26,689 bases of DNA. It comes from a virus. The stretch spans positions 1 to 26,689 of IMG/VR virus record IMGVR_UViG_3300025030_000374, one strand, 5' to 3'. The notes below the pieces were generated by a model. It was not told the DNA's origin, did not search any database, and saw only the letters and a program-made list of their open reading frames with translations. Shown piece after piece: positions 17,558-26,488 of this stretch (position 1 is its first letter; the number at the start of each line of letters is the position of its first letter). The translations under genes and the position numbers were made by a program.

Positions 17558-18616
17558 TTAACCAGCGGTGACTTCCAAGAACTCGAGCGCAATTGCGGCG
17601 TAAGGCTTAATTAGCGCCCCAGAACAACGTGTTTCAATAAGATACTTCTGGGCGTTGTAGTCAATGTCAAAGTCGTCGAACATGTTGACAGCTCCACCCT
17701 TATCGGCACCGACGTTGTAGTCCGACAGGTTGACGACAATCGCGGCAAGAGTGTAGACTTTACCATCTGTCGCTGTTCGGGATAAACTTTCCATTACTGG
17801 AACGGTGATGATTTCTTTAACCCGTAAAGCCGTGGCTAATTTGTCCACCGAATCGTAAATAATACGACCGGTCGTATCTTCCATTAGCAAGCAGTCGGTA
17901 AGAATGTCCTCGGTAGCATATAGAGTCGGCGAACCAGAACCTTTATAGTTCTTTCTGGACTTAACGGCCGCACGAATGAATGCCTTTGCCTTTTGGTCAG
18001 CAGTAGCGTTAGCGACATGCTCAACTGGAGTTTTGATGGTGTACAAATCGGCGTCTGTCCAAATGGGTCGGATGTTTCCTTCGTTGACTTTGTCGTCGGA
18101 AGAAGAAAGACGACCGTCCCCAACAAGAAGTGCGCGAGCGATTTCTTCGTCCAGCATAACTCTCATTTCAGATTTTAGCCACGCCACCACATCGAAGTCG
18201 GTAATATCAACAACATCGTCGCGATCGAGTTTCTGTTTCTTGTAAATGGTTGTCGGGGTAGTGCTTCGCTTAAGTAAGGAGAATACTTCTTCCACCTTTA
18301 GTTTACCTTTGATGTAACCTTTGGCTCGAGCATCGGCCTCAGTGATATCTGCATAGATAGATTTAATGCGAGAGAATGGGGTATTGTGCACGTTAGTCAT
18401 TACTTTCTGCACCCAGCCCATCTCTCTTTGGATGAACTGTGGGGTATTGGTAACGTTTTTCGCATCTGGGAATAGGTAATCGATATTGTCAATACCGTGT
18501 GCTAGAGTTGCATCTTTCAAGCTGCCATATCGTTTAGCATCTGCGATAATAGCCTCCATATCGGAATGGCTAAGGACGTCCTTCTCTTTGTCTTTGTCGA
18601 ATACGTTTTGTTTCAT
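17558..18616 (-). CDS. Possible nested start: free major capsid protein
   Basis: Inside the protease-capsid gene, GAAGGAG lies eight bases before an in-frame ATG at 18616 (Met212, MKQNVFDKDKEKDVLSHSDM). Initiation here would give a 352-residue capsid protein with no protease or linker, close to the usual size of the family. The site falls precisely at the junction of the acidic linker and the capsid domain. Hundreds of capsid copies but few protease copies are needed per head, so such a start would solve the dosage problem. This is a prediction from sequence; cleavage of the full fusion is the alternative. Confidence 0.5.
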   Translation of the reverse strand: MKQNVFDKDKEKDVLSHSDMEAIIADAKRYGSLKDATLAHGIDNIDYLFPDAKNVTNTPQFIQREMGWVQKVMTNVHNTPFSRIKSIYADITEADARAKGYIKGKLKVEEVFSLLKRSTTPTTIYKKQKLDRDDVVDITDFDVVAWLKSEMRVMLDEEIARALLVGDGRLSSSDDKVNEGNIRPIWTDADLYTIKTPVEHVANATADQKAKAFIRAAVKSRKNYKGSGSPTLYATEDILTDCLLMEDTTGRIIYDSVDKLATALRVKEIITVPVMESLSRTATDGKVYTLAAIVVNLSDYNVGADKGGAVNMFDDFDIDYNAQKYLIETRCSGALIKPYAAIALEFLEVTAG

Positions 18617-19249
18617 ATCATCGTCTCCTTCGTCATCTTGATTATTGTTTCCGTCGAGAGCTTGACCGATCATCGCGTACACCACTGTTTTCTGTTTTTC
18701 AGAAAGAGTGTTAAACACGTCGGCAACAGTTTCATCATCTTCCGGTGGGTCGGTTTTTGGCGCTTCTTTTTTGGGTTCTTCTTTTGGCGGATCGGCATGA
18801 AATAATTCCACTTTTTCGCTAGTATAAATCACGGCTTCTTCGTCAGATTCTTCGCCGTGAATCATAACCGAATCAATGAATGCTCCGGGGTTTGCGCCAG
18901 AGAGCACCAAACTTAACTCGCGAATCGCCCCATGAACAACGTTATCGCCCTTCTGTCTTAGTTGGTTTGCGTATATTGACAGAGCTGAAACATCGCCATG
19001 TTTAACTAATAGTTTTGCGTTCTTTCCGGCTTCTGTTTCGTTAAAAACACAATAAGCGTAGACCCCCTCTTTTCGATTCTCCAATAATGCGTGACCAAGC
19101 ACGTTCATCGGACCATCGTGCTGGTGATTCCACACCATAGGGACCGTTTGGCCGTCGTTATGTTTAAACGCGTCTTGTAGAATTGTTCGACCGTCGGAGC
19201 ATTTAAGGTTGTTCCGAGTCGCCCATCCACTAAAATCATACTTTTCCAA
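17558..19249 (-). CDS. Prohead protease fused to HK97-type major capsid protein
   Basis: A 563-residue fusion, starting at TTG 19249, nine bases after AAGGAG. Residues 1-135 are an S78/U35-type prohead protease: His42 or His44 in WNHQHDGP, the likely nucleophile Ser91 in DVSALSIYA, and the conserved IRELSLVLSGANPGA after it. Residues about 150-215 are proline- and acid-rich with a helical segment (LSEKQKTVVYAMIGQAL), resembling a scaffold or delta domain. From about 212 on it is an HK97-fold capsid protein (G-I-D-N-I-D-Y-L-F-P-D-A-K, then an RTTTPTT-like strand, KLDRDDVVDITDFDV and LDEEIARALLVGDGR). The protease presumably cuts the scaffold during maturation. Met212 has its own ribosome binding site, so free capsid protein may also be made. 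Confidence 0.92.
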   Translation of the reverse strand: MEKYDFSGWATRNNLKCSDGRTILQDAFKHNDGQTVPMVWNHQHDGPMNVLGHALLENRKEGVYAYCVFNETEAGKNAKLLVKHGDVSALSIYANQLRQKGDNVVHGAIRELSLVLSGANPGAFIDSVMIHGEESDEEAVIYTSEKVELFHADPPKEEPKKEAPKTDPPEDDETVADVFNTLSEKQKTVVYAMIGQALDGNNNQDDEGDDDMKQNVFDKDKEKDVLSHSDMEAIIADAKRYGSLKDATLAHGIDNIDYLFPDAKNVTNTPQFIQREMGWVQKVMTNVHNTPFSRIKSIYADITEADARAKGYIKGKLKVEEVFSLLKRSTTPTTIYKKQKLDRDDVVDITDFDVVAWLKSEMRVMLDEEIARALLVGDGRLSSSDDKVNEGNIRPIWTDADLYTIKTPVEHVANATADQKAKAFIRAAVKSRKNYKGSGSPTLYATEDILTDCLLMEDTTGRIIYDSVDKLATALRVKEIITVPVMESLSRTATDGKVYTLAAIVVNLSDYNVGADKGGAVNMFDDFDIDYNAQKYLIETRCSGALIKPYAAIALEFLEVTAG

Positions 19250-19275: not shown

Positions 19276-20478
19276 TTATACAAGGGTAATATCTTCAGCC
19301 GGTTTACTTATGTTCTTGTTTTTAAGTTCGTCGGCCTTTGGATCATCGGAGGGTTTCATACCGATAATTTGTCTAAATTCATTCGACGATAAGATCTCGT
19401 TTCGAGTGAACTTATCGGCAATCTCTGCCAAGTCGTTAACCGGTACAAGTTTGAATGGATCTTTAAACACTAAGATTGACTGAAACTGGGATCTTGCGGT
19501 TTTGGTCAAGAATTTTCGTTTCATTTCGTCAACTATGGCGGAGACAATTGGTTCGATGGTTCGATTGTAATAATTAAGCATCGTCTTCTCGTCAGCCGTA
19601 CCATCTAATATGCTCTGAGTGATTCCTAATTGGCTATACAGCATACTCATTAGAAATTCAATCTGACCCATTAGATTGTTCTCTACTGACCGATTCAACT
19701 GTGTGATGCGCTCTGTTCCATCAGTATAAGCTATACCATACTTAGACCCAGCCAACTGATTCTCTATATCGGCGCGTCGAAGTTCGGCTTGTTCTCGCCT
19801 AGCTGTCGTCTTGATGACGTACGGCAATTGAATTATTAAATCTAGTTTTCCAGAACCGCTTTGAATGTCTATTGCGTCTAACAAATTCAACTTCGAGATC
19901 AAGCGTTTTAAAGTTGAATTTGGCTCATTCATAATAGCATATAAAGGATTCTCAATAATCGCCACAGTATTTTTAGGTAATGGAATATCCTCTTTTAAGC
20001 CGGTTTTCTCGTTATAAACTTGGACGCGTATGGAGTTCGGATACCACTGTAGAATCTTGCCAGTTCGAACCGAGTTAATATCGTACGAACCCGTAATTGT
20101 CGGGTTAAACGTCGTATCTGTCGGGACAATGGCGATGCATCCTTCATCCAAAATAGACATAACGGCGTCTTGAATAAATGCGCGTCCTGTCTGATCAACA
20201 TTGGCATCTGAGGTTAAACAAGTATTCAATCCAGACTCGATAACCGATATGAACCGGTTGTTCTGGTCTAGTCGAACATGCTGTATACTTAATGCAGCGG
20301 CGTCAATAGCGATGCGATTGTACACGGCAGTAATGATTGACCGCTCATTTCCGCGAGTAAGTCTTGGTCTATCGGGCCTATTAGAATATCCCATACCATT
20401 GGTTCCGTAATATGGATCAGGGTCTTTATTAAAGAAGACGTTCCATGCATGTTTTAATCTGGAACCAACTGATTCCAA
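19276..20478 (-). CDS. Portal protein
   Basis: A 400-residue HK97-family portal. It starts at TTG 20478, about ten bases after AAAGGAGG; no ATG is nearby. Supporting segments are the N-terminal VYNRIAIDAAALSIQHVRLD, an I-L-D-E-G-C-I-A-I-V-P strand, ILQWYPNSIRVQVYNEKTG, the stem-like helical part with LMSMLYSQLGITQSILDGTA and MLNYYNRTIEPIVSAIVDEM, and the C-terminal F-T-R-N-E-I-L-S-S-N-E-F-R clip segment. Twelve copies form the channel at one capsid vertex through which the terminase pumps DNA and to which the neck binds. It precedes the protease-capsid gene, the standard order. Confidence 0.92.
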   Translation of the reverse strand: MESVGSRLKHAWNVFFNKDPDPYYGTNGMGYSNRPDRPRLTRGNERSIITAVYNRIAIDAAALSIQHVRLDQNNRFISVIESGLNTCLTSDANVDQTGRAFIQDAVMSILDEGCIAIVPTDTTFNPTITGSYDINSVRTGKILQWYPNSIRVQVYNEKTGLKEDIPLPKNTVAIIENPLYAIMNEPNSTLKRLISKLNLLDAIDIQSGSGKLDLIIQLPYVIKTTARREQAELRRADIENQLAGSKYGIAYTDGTERITQLNRSVENNLMGQIEFLMSMLYSQLGITQSILDGTADEKTMLNYYNRTIEPIVSAIVDEMKRKFLTKTARSQFQSILVFKDPFKLVPVNDLAEIADKFTRNEILSSNEFRQIIGMKPSDDPKADELKNKNISKPAEDITLV

Positions 20479-20519: not shown

Positions 20520-21167
20520 TTATCGTCTTCGATTATCAATAATGGCCGTCTTCAAATCACTAGACTGCCAAACGACATTATCGACCCTTTGTGGAAGAAT
20601 ATTCGCGCCCCAACGTTTAAAGTTTGCTTCGTTTTTTGCTCGTGTAGCATTGACTTGTTTTGCTTTCATTCCAAGTGCCCATTTGCCAATATACGCGGCC
20701 TTTACGGCGAAGACTACACCTGCTTCTATACCGTCTTCTTTAGTTGTTATTCTGCGTTTACTTCCAGGTTTTAGTTTACCTTCGTCGGTATATCGAGTGG
20801 CAGCAGACTTAGCAAGGCGGTCTTTAAGGACCACTTTTCCCGCGGTATATGCCGATATTTGAGCAATCCTGATGGCGATATCTTTTTTATTTGCTGGAAA
20901 TTTACCAGTTAGGACATCTTTAATGATCATTTGAGAAGTGGCATTAACTGCGGTTTTTGCTACACGCATACCAACGCCTCGACTTCGATAATTAAATCTA
21001 GCGGCGTCAGATGTTCCTTGGAGACTCTTATTGTTATTTAAAGCGGTTAATTTTTTCTGAAATTCCTTTTCTTTTTGTTTCGACGACGATTTACTTTTTG
21101 AAGACGCGCCTCGTTTTCCCCAATGCATACCGAGGACTCCAAAATGCCGTAGATAATTATCTTCCAT
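20520..21167 (-). CDS. Tagged basic protein 3 (N-terminal HFG-GM-WG motif)
   Basis: A 215-residue basic protein from ATG 21167 behind AAGGAGG. The first 19 residues hold the motif MEDNYLRHFGVLGMHWGKRG, shared with two other proteins of this window. A Ser/Lys-rich linker (about 20-35) follows, then a largely helical body with two hydrophobic stretches, IRIAQISAYTAGKVV (about 103-117) and AGVVFAVKAAYIGKWALGM (about 148-167), and a basic end. No catalytic motif was seen. It sits directly before the portal gene. Such tagged proteins are frequent next to terminase and portal genes in Bacillota phages, but I know of no proven function. A virion-internal or ejected role is inferred from charge, hydrophobic segments and position. 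Confidence 0.75.
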   Translation of the reverse strand: MEDNYLRHFGVLGMHWGKRGASSKSKSSSKQKEKEFQKKLTALNNNKSLQGTSDAARFNYRSRGVGMRVAKTAVNATSQMIIKDVLTGKFPANKKDIAIRIAQISAYTAGKVVLKDRLAKSAATRYTDEGKLKPGSKRRITTKEDGIEAGVVFAVKAAYIGKWALGMKAKQVNATRAKNEANFKRWGANILPQRVDNVVWQSSDLKTAIIDNRRR

Positions 21168-21184
21168 TTTGAACCGACACCTCC

Positions 21185-22171
21185 TTAGTAAGCTGAGCCA
21201 AGCGAAATACGACGCCAGTTCTTATCAGAGGTCGTGTTGGCAGCTACGCATTTGTATAGATACGACGCGTCAACCATTATAGCATCTATGTCGCCGACCG
21301 TGCCGTTAACCCCTCCAGACAACGCGACAGCTCCTTCTGTAAACGCACCGTTGGCCATGGTTTCGCTAACGATAATGGCGTTACCAATGGTTCCAGCAAC
21401 ATCGGCGGTAAGGTCTATACTATCGCCAGTACCATCAGCAGCACCGACTCCTTGTGTGTCAGACATAGTGATGGCAGCTACTAGCGCTGTCACAGCATTC
21501 GTAGCTGTACAATTCGCGCCAGTCGCTAATGTTACTCCAGCAAATACATTTGTTACATCCGTGAACGTTTCTGTGGTAACAATTGCATCGCCAGAAACAC
21601 CCCCGATTAAAGCTGTAATCACGCAATCGTTTACTACAAAATTAGAAGCTGTAACTAGAGGATGTGGATCGTTAACCTCATCGACACCATTGATGGCGGC
21701 TACGATCGCTAGTTTCGAAGTGGCTAAATCTGTTGCGATTGAGATTTCACCGTCAGCATTGTTAGTTCCAACGGGAACAAATGTGTACACTTTCTCACCA
21801 ATAGTCATAGTGTCACCACTGGTTGGTCGAGCAGCGATCGTTAAGGCTATGGACGATTTGGTTGTGCTGGCGGTGATATTGACCGCTATGTTTGTTGATA
21901 CCGTTTTTATTTGAGCAGTGTCTGATAGAAATTCATACACATCGGTTCCTGCTACGGCTGGGTTATTAATGGTCACGGTCTCGCCATGAATTACAACTCC
22001 TGATATCGCAAGGTTTTTTGAGGCATTCACGGCATTCACGGCTGTTCCAGAGACAACTATGTTGTTAATGGAATCGATGATGGATTTTATTTTACCACCT
22101 AATTTCATTCGCTGAGTGTTTACGTTAATGTTATCTAAGTCTAGGACTTCCACGGCGGTAAGATTATTCAT
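21185..22171 (-). CDS. Repetitive head decoration / fibre-like structural protein
   Basis: A 328-residue protein from ATG 22171 behind AAAGGAG. It is poor in charged and aromatic residues and rich in Ala, Thr, Val, Gly and Asn. It is built of related beta modules: about 60-115, a full one at about 115-215 (GDTMTIGEKVYTFVP, then VAAINGVDEVNDPHPLVTAS, C-V-I-T-A-L-I-G-G-V-S-G-D-A-I), and a partial one at about 250-290 (DSIDLTADVAGTIGNAI). The C-terminus (YLYKCVAANTTSDKNWRRIS) resembles the attachment end of phage decoration or fibre proteins. Its location in the head module argues for a capsid-surface protein rather than a tail fibre. I cannot tell decoration from head fibre. Confidence 0.7.
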   Translation of the reverse strand: MNNLTAVEVLDLDNINVNTQRMKLGGKIKSIIDSINNIVVSGTAVNAVNASKNLAISGVVIHGETVTINNPAVAGTDVYEFLSDTAQIKTVSTNIAVNITASTTKSSIALTIAARPTSGDTMTIGEKVYTFVPVGTNNADGEISIATDLATSKLAIVAAINGVDEVNDPHPLVTASNFVVNDCVITALIGGVSGDAIVTTETFTDVTNVFAGVTLATGANCTATNAVTALVAAITMSDTQGVGAADGTGDSIDLTADVAGTIGNAIIVSETMANGAFTEGAVALSGGVNGTVGDIDAIMVDASYLYKCVAANTTSDKNWRRISLGSAY

Positions 22172-22187
22172 AATTAATTCGCTCCTT

Positions 22188-22646
22188 TTATTTTATAATC
22201 ATATTAATTACTTTAGTGAGATGTTTATACAAAAACGCATCAACGGTCGGTTTATTTCTCTGATAGGCATAAGATGCCGCCGCTATTGTTAACGGCCCAG
22301 TAATTCCCATAAATTGTTTTACCGTAACTCGTGCTCGGTATGAGGTGTCCTTTATTTTACGTGTTCGAACTGCTTTTTTTGCAGCGTTGCTATAATCAAC
22401 TTTTCCCAGAGCCTTGTTAAATTCACTTTCATAATTAGGAATTATTTTCTTTTTTTTATCCAATTCCGCCTTTAATAGTTTACGATTTGTTCCAGCTGTT
22501 TTTCCATAAAACATTTTAGCTTCGGCATGTCGCTTAGCATCTTTTTCAGCCAAACGCGTTGTAGATCTGTCTACTCCATTCTGTGATTTTCTTCTACCCC
22601 AATGCATGCCAATAATGCCAAAATGCTGTAACTGATTTTTATCCAT
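22188..22646 (-). CDS. Tagged basic protein 2 (N-terminal HFG-GM-WG motif)
   Basis: A 152-residue protein read from ATG 22646 (AAGGGGG upstream), ten bases after the large terminase stop; the longer frame to 22694 would overlap the terminase and lacks a ribosome binding site. It starts MDKNQLQHFGIIGMHWGRRK, the tag shared with two neighbours. The body is strongly basic, with A-K-M-F-Y-G-K-T-A-G-T-N-R-K-L-L-K and paired Lys/Arg helices, followed near 115-130 by a short hydrophobic helix (FMGITGPLTIAAASYAY). The Y-G-x-x-A-G-T-x-R-K-L pattern is familiar from similar conserved phage proteins of unknown role. No enzyme motif is visible. Confidence 0.75.
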   Translation of the reverse strand: MDKNQLQHFGIIGMHWGRRKSQNGVDRSTTRLAEKDAKRHAEAKMFYGKTAGTNRKLLKAELDKKKKIIPNYESEFNKALGKVDYSNAAKKAVRTRKIKDTSYRARVTVKQFMGITGPLTIAAASYAYQRNKPTVDAFLYKHLTKVINMIIK

Positions 22647-22656
22647 AGTCGCCCCC

Positions 22657-24402
22657 TTATTCAAACGCGTCTTTATTTGCTTTATATGAGACATAAGCGT
22701 CCATCAAAGCAGAAACGCTATCGATCTTTTGTGCGTAACGTTTCTTTAGCAATTTACGATTACCATTAGTGTCCTCGAGGGTTATGGAATTTCCCATAGC
22801 AAACGTCATAAGCGCTTGATCGAAAACCAACATTCGTTCTTCGGCTAGTATTTTCAATTCACCTAATGGTACCGATTCGGTTTTTGTTCCCTGTATAACC
22901 TTGTCTATACCGTAAGGTCCATTTTCAGTTTCCCACCTAGTTACGAATTCTTTAGCGTTATATGGGTCGAATCCAAAGCAACGTACGTCGTAACTCGAAT
23001 CGAGTATGTACTTGTCGAGATCTTCGTACACTTCCATCGTGTCAAGGACCGTACCTTCCAGTACAATCAAACTACCCTCTTCTAGGAACTCGTTATATTT
23101 GATACGCATGGCCCCTGGTAGTTTCATAAGGGTTAGAGAGGTAATATAACATCTAGTCTTTACGCCAAACATTCCGTTTTGTAGAGGGAATAAGAATGTG
23201 AACGCACAGAAGTCGTCGCCTTGTGATAAGTCTCCACCCATCGCGCATGGCATAGACCAAAAGTTACGCTTACGATGTGGTAATGTATCTTCGTAGGCGA
23301 AGAAGTAAGTATAACCCTCCATGGGTATTCCAAATCGTTTTGCCAGAATATCGTTTCTTGCGGCTGGAGCTTTTTCAGCTCTTTCGACATCTAATTGATA
23401 GGTTTCGTACGTCACAGTTTGTCCGAGATTCGGATTAGCTTTCTGCCACGTTGCTGGATCGCTAATTTCTTTGATGTCGTCTAATTTATACCACCAAATG
23501 GAAACGTGAGGGTTAATGTACTCTCCTTTCAAGATGTCTGCTAGTTCCATTTTGATGGTGTCACCACTACCGTTTCGCACAGTGCCTTCTGAACTTGTGG
23601 CAATGATTATATAGTCATCTAGTTTGGAGGCTCCTTGTTCGATGGCTCCTACTACGTCTTCTCGGATGTCACCGGAAAGCCACTCATCGACTGTTGAGAC
23701 TTTTGGTCTAAGACCCTGAAGCTTATCGATACTCATTGGTCTGACTTCGATGATGGAGCCTGTTAGAAAGTTCTCAACGCCCTTTTTGGTAGAGGCTAGT
23801 TTGACTCGATTGGCTCGCGAACCGGTAGTGTTCTGTAATGAACCCTCAGTCAAGAACTTAAAGAGTGGTCCGCGTGATCGAATGATGGCAGTTCGTATTG
23901 GAGACATAACTTCATCCGCTTGTTTCATCGTCGGGGCTGTGGTAATCTGATGAGTCGTAGTAGTATCCACATTGTGAAAGTATGATTGGATGCATGAATC
24001 GTATAATGACTTAGCCGCGCCCCTACCGACGATCAAGTACTGTTTATTGATAAGACGTTTCTTAATCATTTTACGAACATACTTACCGCCATGATTGTCT
24101 GGCGACGGTTCGTATATACTTCGTTCGACAAAGTAGTACCATCCGAATACTTGTTCCGCCCATAACTTAAATGAGTCGAGTAATCTTAAATCCGCGCCAT
24201 CGGTGAGGGTTAGTTCGTTCTCGCAGTAATCGACAAAACCGTCAACAGCTCGATCGTCATAATAAATTCCAGGATTTGCTATCAGATCGTCAATTCGATT
24301 CATCTCCATGGAGATTTCTTTACAAACTGGTATAATTCGGTTTAATACGTCACTGCGAAATTTACCATAATATTTTGGAGTTGCCGTGTTTGATAACGCC
24401 AT
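22657..24402 (-). CDS. terL: Terminase large subunit
   Basis: A 581-residue packaging motor and nuclease. The ATPase part shows a Walker A-like loop VGRGAAKS near residues 125-132, a Walker B VSTVDEW near 235-241 with Asp239 and Glu240, and a likely coupling motif IIIATSSEGT near 264-273. The nuclease part shows the expected acidic residues: MGGDLSQGDD near Asp390, CFGFDPYN near Asp478, and KIDSVSALMDAY near Asp560 or Asp567. The protein binds the portal, drives DNA into the prohead and cuts concatemers. The start ATG 24402 follows AGAGG. It is preceded and followed by two tagged small proteins, and the portal lies two genes further on. Confidence 0.95.
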   Translation of the reverse strand: MALSNTATPKYYGKFRSDVLNRIIPVCKEISMEMNRIDDLIANPGIYYDDRAVDGFVDYCENELTLTDGADLRLLDSFKLWAEQVFGWYYFVERSIYEPSPDNHGGKYVRKMIKKRLINKQYLIVGRGAAKSLYDSCIQSYFHNVDTTTTHQITTAPTMKQADEVMSPIRTAIIRSRGPLFKFLTEGSLQNTTGSRANRVKLASTKKGVENFLTGSIIEVRPMSIDKLQGLRPKVSTVDEWLSGDIREDVVGAIEQGASKLDDYIIIATSSEGTVRNGSGDTIKMELADILKGEYINPHVSIWWYKLDDIKEISDPATWQKANPNLGQTVTYETYQLDVERAEKAPAARNDILAKRFGIPMEGYTYFFAYEDTLPHRKRNFWSMPCAMGGDLSQGDDFCAFTFLFPLQNGMFGVKTRCYITSLTLMKLPGAMRIKYNEFLEEGSLIVLEGTVLDTMEVYEDLDKYILDSSYDVRCFGFDPYNAKEFVTRWETENGPYGIDKVIQGTKTESVPLGELKILAEERMLVFDQALMTFAMGNSITLEDTNGNRKLLKKRYAQKIDSVSALMDAYVSYKANKDAFE

Positions 24403-24414
24403 AGTAGAACCTCT

Positions 24415-24768
24415 TTATTTAACTTTACTTTTAACTCCTTTAATAATATCTTGAGCTAGTGGTGTTTTTGAAAGAGCGTAGAATGAGGCAAGGGTTGTTC
24501 CGGCCGCAGTTACGGTTTTAACGACATTTAGACCTTTTTTAACATGGCCGGGATTTAGATCTCTGACTTGTTTTTCGAGTTGGATTCTAGTTGTCAATTC
24601 TCTAAGCTGCTCATTGCTCATTTCATGGATCTTTTTACCTTTTAGTAGTACTTTCTTTTTATGATCGTCGCTGGTAATACGTGGTTTCGACTTGGACGAG
24701 GTCCCTCGAGCTTTCTTCTTTCCCCATTTCATTCCTGGAATTCCAAAATGGGTTAAATCATTACGCAT
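24415..24768 (-). CDS. Tagged basic protein 1 (N-terminal HFG-GM-WG motif)
   Basis: A 117-residue protein from ATG 24768, with GGAGGTGGTGAT upstream. It starts MRNDLTHFGIPGMKWGKKKA, the first of three copies of this tag in the window. A Lys/Ser-rich linker follows, then a helix with KIHEMSNEQLRELTTRIQLE and a hydrophobic stretch near 85-100 (VVKTVTAAGTTLASFYALS) before a basic end. The M-S-N-E-Q-L-R-E-L segment is typical of small phage proteins of this kind. It lies between the connector and the large terminase. The function is unknown; a membrane- or portal-associated virion role is only inferred. Confidence 0.75.
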   Translation of the reverse strand: MRNDLTHFGIPGMKWGKKKARGTSSKSKPRITSDDHKKKVLLKGKKIHEMSNEQLRELTTRIQLEKQVRDLNPGHVKKGLNVVKTVTAAGTTLASFYALSKTPLAQDIIKGVKSKVK

Positions 24769-26152: not shown

Positions 26153-26488
26153 CTAATCATCAACGCTCCCTTGTCCACTGTACGTTCTCATTGCAGAAAG
26201 GGCATTTGCATATAGTTCTTCGGTTTTCTTTGCCGATTGAATGGCTTCGGTTTTGGCTTGTATTAATTCTTTTTGTAATACGAGAATCTCTTTTTCAACT
26301 CGGTCCTTGGTCGAACCGATCTTTAGAAAATGGGCTATAACCTGAGACGAAGCCGTTCCTTTAGAAAGTTGAGCCTCAGCCAAGTCGACAGCGAGAGCTA
26401 CCAATTGATTTTCGCGAGCTTCTGGAGTTTTAGCCGGAGGACGTCGCCTTTTGATTGGAGCATCATCTCTCTTAGAAACGGCCATCAA
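26153..26488 (-). CDS. Putative terminase small subunit
   Basis: A protein of about 110 residues. TTG 26488 lies nine bases after AAGGAG and ATG 26485 is next in frame; either may be used. The basic, proline-rich N-terminus (KRRRPPAKTPEARENQLVAL) leads into helices with AVDLAEAQLSKGTASSQVIA, H-F-L-K-I-G-S-T-K-D-R-V-E-K-E, a long charged coiled coil, and ends E-E-L-Y-A-N-A-L-S-A-M-R-T-Y-S-G-Q-G. This is a well conserved phage protein pattern found at the head of packaging clusters in Gram-positive phages. The T-A-S-S-Q-V-I segment could be a small helix-turn-helix. As first gene before HNH and terL it is the best candidate for the DNA-recognition subunit, but the family assignment is inference. 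Confidence 0.6.
   Translation of the reverse strand: MMAVSKRDDAPIKRRRPPAKTPEARENQLVALAVDLAEAQLSKGTASSQVIAHFLKIGSTKDRVEKEILVLQKELIQAKTEAIQSAKKTEELYANALSAMRTYSGQGSVDD

Follow-up and report, generated by a model that had tools for sequence, protein, structure and literature searches.

Three genes interleaved with those for the terminase large subunit (TerL) and portal in the virus record IMGVR_UViG_3300025030_000374 (IMG/VR, positions 1 to 26,689; this whole stretch of 26,689 nucleotides is the window of our analysis) encode basic proteins, W1, W2 and W3, that are unrelated apart from one short N-terminal peptide, which we call the tag. We consider it probable, although well short of certain, that the tag serves as a short linear peptide that targets internal virion proteins to the capsid (cargo loading) in siphoviral heads like that of Lactococcus phage 1706, which fuse an S78 protease to an HK97-type capsid. 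The head/tail module lies on the minus strand in the order HNH endonuclease, connector protein, W1, TerL, W2, an untagged 328-residue gene, W3, portal, protease–capsid fusion and tail genes, as the original prediction had it in placing the tagged genes among terL and portal. The features on which the argument depends are the following.

24415..24768, minus strand: W1, tagged protein, 117 residues, net charge +18, directly upstream of terL
24715..24756, minus strand: W1 tag, LTHFGIPGMKWGKK
22188..22646, minus strand: W2, tagged protein, 152 residues, net charge +22, between terL and the untagged 328-residue gene
22590..22631, minus strand: W2 tag, LQHFGIIGMHWGRR
20520..21167, minus strand: W3, tagged protein, 215 residues, net charge +28, directly upstream of the portal gene
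21111..21152, minus strand: W3 tag, LRHFGVLGMHWGKR
22657..24402, minus strand: terminase large subunit (phrog_9, 7e-103; PF20441), which anchors the block of tagged genes
19276..20478, minus strand: portal protein (phrog_12, 6e-41; PF04860), the downstream border of the block

A shared peptide at the starts of three window genes

A six-frame search of the window with L-x-H-F-G-[IV]-x-G-M-[KH]-W-G-[KR]-[KR] returned exactly three copies, all at gene starts, and the motif did not occur in any of 200 shuffled windows. The three tags belong to the same sequence family as Pfam PF23847 (DUF7211), which they match at 30.2, 32.7 and 30.9 bits (curated cut-off 27 bits) and which was also found in a nucleotide scan, while pairwise BLASTP similarity between W1, W2 and W3 is limited to the tag and its immediate flank. 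These data bear out the prediction of a common N-terminal pattern followed by divergence, save that the spacer reads M-x(3-4)-L and not M-x(4-5)-L. Since the tag DNA is only 60–69% identical between the window copies, what is conserved is the peptide and not a recent DNA duplication. In PHROG searches W1 matched phrog_7021 (5e-24) and W2 matched phrog_6291 (8e-28); the matches of W3 cover mainly its tag region, and its body has two homologues among the 120 contigs described below. PF23847 is the catalogued family of the tag, a 25-residue model with no function assigned, and searches of the library available to us for papers on the motif or on DUF7211 returned nothing relevant, its cargo, head specificity and genomic layout not being described there; in the earlier note, too, no established function was known.

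A good ribosome-binding site precedes each of the three genes. The true start of W2 is probably the ATG at 22646, with AAGGGGG upstream, which yields a protein of 152 residues with the tag at its extreme N terminus; a longer open reading frame (ORF) from 22694 overlaps terL. The net charges of the three proteins contrast with those of every other measured gene of the module, which range from −26 to +3, in agreement with the Lys/Arg-rich bodies originally described. The short hydrophobic helix ascribed to each body fared less well, the best 19-residue Kyte–Doolittle means of the three window proteins (1.06, 0.98 and 1.23) lying below the value usual for transmembrane segments, and a segment above 1.6 occurring in only 17% of related bodies. 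A transmembrane function as a general property of tagged proteins was rejected on this basis, and the proposal that hydrophobic bodies act in the host membrane is unsupported as a general feature.

The tag and its cargo across phages

A degenerate DNA pattern for the motif matched at least 120 IMG/VR contigs and 50 stretches of bacterial genome assemblies, mostly of Clostridia and Bacilli, the body-family and tag counts given here being drawn from the matches listed; a protein search of 72,556 plasmids found no tag. The distribution is wider than the Bacillota phages noted originally, phages of Arthrobacter, Gordonia, Streptomyces, Rhodococcus, Microbacterium and Curtobacterium dominating among isolates. 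The consensus, [DE]-[DE]-[EFY]-L-x-H-[YF]-G-[VI]-[KL]-G-M-[KRH]-W-G-V-R-[RK], is roughly 18 residues long with near-invariant H, G, G, M, W and G and occasional GQKWG variants. Measured from the earliest possible start codon, the first tag begins at a median distance of 15 residues, and 23 of the 251 tagged ORFs carry two to four tags spaced 95–318 residues apart. The location at the extreme N terminus stands for the window, once W2 is restarted at 22646, and does not always hold elsewhere, where tags are also internal and in tandem.

The bodies behind the tag fall into ∼197 greedy families among the 251 tagged ORFs, 97% of related bodies are net positive (mean +0.10 per residue; tagged versus untagged genes, p = 2e-8) and a single phage encodes one to nine tagged proteins. 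One phage thus carries the same short peptide on several proteins that have nothing else in common, as in the capsid-targeting class. A family scan of 120 diverse tagged proteins detected DUF7211 in all of them and, beyond the tag, 2H/LigT phosphoesterase (six proteins), GNAT acetyltransferase (four) and papain-fold glutamine-deamidase toxin (three) domains, with one example each of ADP-ribosyltransferase, barstar, P-loop NTPase and helix-turn-helix protein; Foldseek confirmed the LigT-like and GNAT folds. The expectation of diverse C-terminal domains on a common tag was accordingly borne out, both in the number of body families and in the several enzyme folds. The tagged proteins at L038:10765-11553 and L064:12118-13014 (both minus strand), with a papain-fold deamidase and an ADP-ribosyltransferase domain, respectively, are candidate injected effectors against the bacterial host.

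Cargo units also occur in fusions. The protein L117 has the architecture [2H]-[tag-GNAT]-[tag-W1 unit], with both HxT motifs of its 2H domain intact, and Streptomyces phage Bilo gp6 is [tag-GNAT]-[tag-W1 unit], while in L018 and L089 a tagged relative of the GNAT unit that L117 and Bilo gp6 fuse upstream of tag-W1 stands alone. In L027 and L075 a 2H phosphoesterase-like ORF, stand-alone and apparently untagged, lies directly upstream of TerL, in the slot where other phages fuse 2H to tag-W1.

Structure prediction argues against the tag being an integral part of one common fold. In the AlphaFold model of W1 (64 aligned sequences) the tag has a predicted local distance difference test score of ∼61 and no secondary structure, compared with 92–95 for the helical domain, and in that of L117 two of the least confident segments, 189–214 and 363–390, overlap the two tags that lie between folded domains. 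A segment that is both the best conserved and predicted to be unfolded resembles, in these models, a partner-binding linear motif. Tags moreover follow the phage that carries them: identity at the variable positions is 0.63 between tags on unrelated bodies within a phage, 0.52 between those on homologous bodies across phages and 0.47 overall (permutation 0/500; Wilcoxon 9e-14), a pattern that fits adaptation to a phage-specific partner.

One family stands apart from the remainder. The W1 family has 94 members, accounts for 69 of the 93 tagged ORFs adjacent upstream of TerL and is near-universal beside terL in these phages, which suggests a core function in the head for one or more tagged proteins; the rest behave as exchangeable accessory cargo. 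We rejected the idea that a tagged gene always lies directly upstream of terL, which is the case at 86 of 121 loci, the exceptions being mostly contig ends, GQKWG variants missed by the pattern or untagged genes. Identification of the W1 family as the small terminase subunit, from its position, was considered and set aside, as its members are basic, tagged and often fused behind enzymes. The family has a second conserved motif after the tag, LS[ND]xEL....R..LE.QY, in which the R and E are invariant.

Confinement to the terL–portal block of one head type

We placed 267 tagged ORFs relative to hidden Markov model matches for TerL, portal and capsid fusion. All but two, which come after the portal gene, lie in the terL–portal block (265 of 267): 122 before TerL, 115 between TerL and portal, 23 after TerL with the portal gene beyond the contig and five before the portal gene with TerL not seen; the two others are one between portal and capsid and one after the capsid gene. 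In nine complete phage genomes (44–114 kb), which encode up to nine different tagged proteins each, 36 of 36 DUF7211 matches are in this block and none elsewhere. Clustering near terL and portal, proposed at the outset as a check on the prediction, is therefore confirmed.

The capsid gene downstream of the portal in the window is of a composite type, and its product is a candidate receptor or processing enzyme for the tag:

17558..19249, minus strand: S78 head-maturation protease fused to an HK97-type major capsid protein (phrog_3270, 6e-223; PF04586; PF05065 just under cut-off), the two joined by an acidic linker (residues 126–262, net charge −23)

Of 50,697 phage records, 247 carry the tag and 246 the S78-protease/capsid fusion, these being totals compared and not matched record by record, with equal counts of the two by genus (Arthrobacter 95, Gordonia 55, Streptomyces 54, Lactococcus 13, Curtobacterium 7, Microbacterium 4). 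Searches with TerL and portal at low identity reach far more phages (1,934 and 622). Every one of the 47 loci that extend 3 kb or more past the portal gene has the fusion, as do 41 of 42 whole records. No sheath gene was found in those 42 records, so all appear siphoviral, and association of the tag with the head is for this reason inseparable from association with the tail. The linker of the capsid fusion has a median net charge of −32, and its length shows no correlation with tag number (rho 0.03). Neither the capsid fusion nor the tag matched a relative in PDB searches.

Possible residence in the virion is suggested by Lactococcus phage 1706, in which ORF7, next to terL and bearing two tags, is annotated in GenBank as 'structural protein'. 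Structural annotations in this phage reportedly derive from mass spectrometry. A tagged family, PHROG 35934, is likewise labelled virion structural protein. The source for phage 1706 is Garneau et al. 2008 (Virology), as cited in PMC4110766.

Two further genes of the module and one segment of the capsid fusion deserve mention.

21185..22171, minus strand: untagged acidic protein, 328 residues, net charge −17, in the interval between W2 and W3 and within the terL–portal slot
26153..26488, minus strand: protein of 111 residues at the start of the module, phrog_4259 (function not assigned)

The former had no family match in Pfam and PHROG searches and is rich in Thr, Val and Ala, contrasting with the basic tagged genes, a composition that suggests a head fibre or decoration protein; the position of the latter suggests a small terminase subunit or a regulator. 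Residues ∼225–265 of the capsid fusion, before the capsid domain, form a conserved linker block (LsH.d...I..dAk..GSlK....hGi..Id.LFPdak) that is a candidate cleavage or docking region.

A putative loading signal and its alternatives

The capsid-targeting sequence (CTS) of phage T4 is a short N-terminal peptide on otherwise unrelated, mostly basic proteins (IPI–III and Alt), which are packed into the head and injected; one of the CTS-bearing proteins is an ADP-ribosyltransferase, and the peptides are removed by the gp21 protease. The tag is similarly a short, usually N-terminal peptide on unrelated basic proteins, with an ADP-ribosyltransferase in both cargo sets. Unlike the CTS, it is also found internally and in tandem, and its head is an HK97-type siphoviral head with a capsid-fused protease; we know of no sequence similarity between the two. 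Encapsulin cargo-loading peptides offer a second parallel, as they are short linear sequences, usually C-terminal, that load diverse enzymes into an HK97-fold shell, although they differ from the tag in sequence and their shells lack portal, DNA and tail. By analogy, the tag putatively works like both.

A third comparison is with polyvalent phage proteins, whose domains, according to the passages of Iyer et al. 2017 (PMC5512222) that concern them, include 2H, GNAT and ADP-ribosyltransferase and are predicted to be packaged and injected, a catalytic repertoire in common with the tagged cargo. The cargo of polyvalent proteins is carried in large multidomain proteins or in MuF and portal fusions, those of 2H to MuF and portal proteins being noted in the same passages, which also cover T4 Alt, whereas here single domains sit on a tag of ∼18 residues; these passages make no mention of the tag motif. 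At least two effector domains in one long polypeptide, as expected of polyvalent proteins, are found in none of W1–W3 and in part in L117 (2H and GNAT).

Modularity, block confinement, head type, disorder, tags that track their phage and the 1706 annotation together favour, as the best reading of the tag, the signal first proposed, one that docks or loads diverse cargo, while leaving portal, capsid fusion and terminase inseparable as its receptor. The steps of binding, loading and ejection that we infer would run as follows. Late in infection, basic internal proteins would be made carrying the tag, usually at the N terminus, while the prohead is built from the capsid protein with its own S78 protease and acidic linker, presumably facing inwards as in other HK97-type proheads. 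During prohead assembly the tag would bind a lineage-specific head component, our best guess being the part of the capsid fusion that faces inwards, protease and acidic linker, with the portal vertex a second and nearly as plausible candidate. Cargo would thereby be trapped inside the prohead, where its positive charge would hold it among the DNA; maturation would remove protease and linker but leave the cargo in place, and it would probably enter the next host cell with the genome. The helical W1-family protein would be a core component and the other tagged proteins accessory ones, including enzymes of kinds used against host defence or metabolism. A broader version, which we advance tentatively and rate a little below an even chance, is that of a general portable cargo-loading peptide in HK97-type siphoviral heads, in which an unfolded 18-residue tag, read by the protease–capsid fusion or the portal, would pack up to nine exchangeable proteins per virion, singly or as beads on a string, among them injected counter-defence or host-modifying enzymes.

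Several observations weigh against the loading hypothesis. If one tag suffices for loading, the second tag kept in fused proteins has no explanation, and each phage seems to need one tagged protein or more, as would be expected equally of cargo and of an assembly factor. These phages inherit head, terminase, portal and tail as a unit, so co-occurrence cannot pick the receptor; when distances between tags were set against those for TerL, portal and capsid, Mantel and partial Mantel tests gave similarly weak values (0.15–0.18) that do not discriminate. The 'structural' label of 1706 ORF7 rests on a GenBank annotation, and the similarity of tags within a phage could stem from intragenomic recombination.

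The position of tagged genes on either side of terL and portal, and almost never beyond the capsid gene, together with the near-universal W1-family member beside terL, as expected of an essential factor, would also be explained by a tag by which helper proteins dock on the portal or terminase while the prohead assembles or DNA is packaged, to act there as connector plug, packaging cofactor or scaffold with no delivery to a new host. We regard this as unlikely though worth serious thought, since up to nine tagged proteins per phage and enzymatic bodies (2H, GNAT, ADP-ribosyltransferase, deamidase) are hard to fit as packaging cofactors and the tagged 1706 protein is annotated as virion-resident. 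The constant presence of the protease, and the resemblance of multi-tag proteins to strings of tag-cargo units, could instead mean that the tag is primarily a recognition site for the capsid-fused S78 protease, which would mature tagged proteins and split multi-tag polypeptides. This is improbable, however: a scan found no tag-like sequence in the capsid fusion, the expected main substrate of the protease, internal tags have no extra conserved preceding residues relative to N-terminal tags, no cleavage motif is apparent, and cleavage at the extreme N terminus would remove almost nothing.

A signal acting in the new host cell, by binding a channel, membrane or host factor, and not in loading, would account for the resemblance of the cargo to injected effectors. 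We find this slightly harder still to credit, as tags stay with the head lineage in hosts as different as Actinobacteria, Lactococcus and Clostridia, segments of transmembrane strength are uncommon, and the plasmids searched, a group in which some deliver similar effectors, lack the motif. Finally, the mutual resemblance of the tags of one phage is what leftover 5′ ends of duplicated genes with replaced bodies would show, but we give such a non-functional relic very little credence: persistence of the six near-invariant residues over very deep divergence requires purifying selection, and the low identity of the window tag DNA also speaks against it.

If the tag is indeed a loading peptide, it would identify hundreds of proteins now listed as hypothetical, in gut phages and in well-studied actinophages, as predicted virion cargo readable from sequence alone, and would be a simple marker for finding injected effectors. 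Encapsidation in siphoviruses would become open to experiment in harmless laboratory phages, and a short peptide would be at hand for loading chosen reporter proteins into phage heads.

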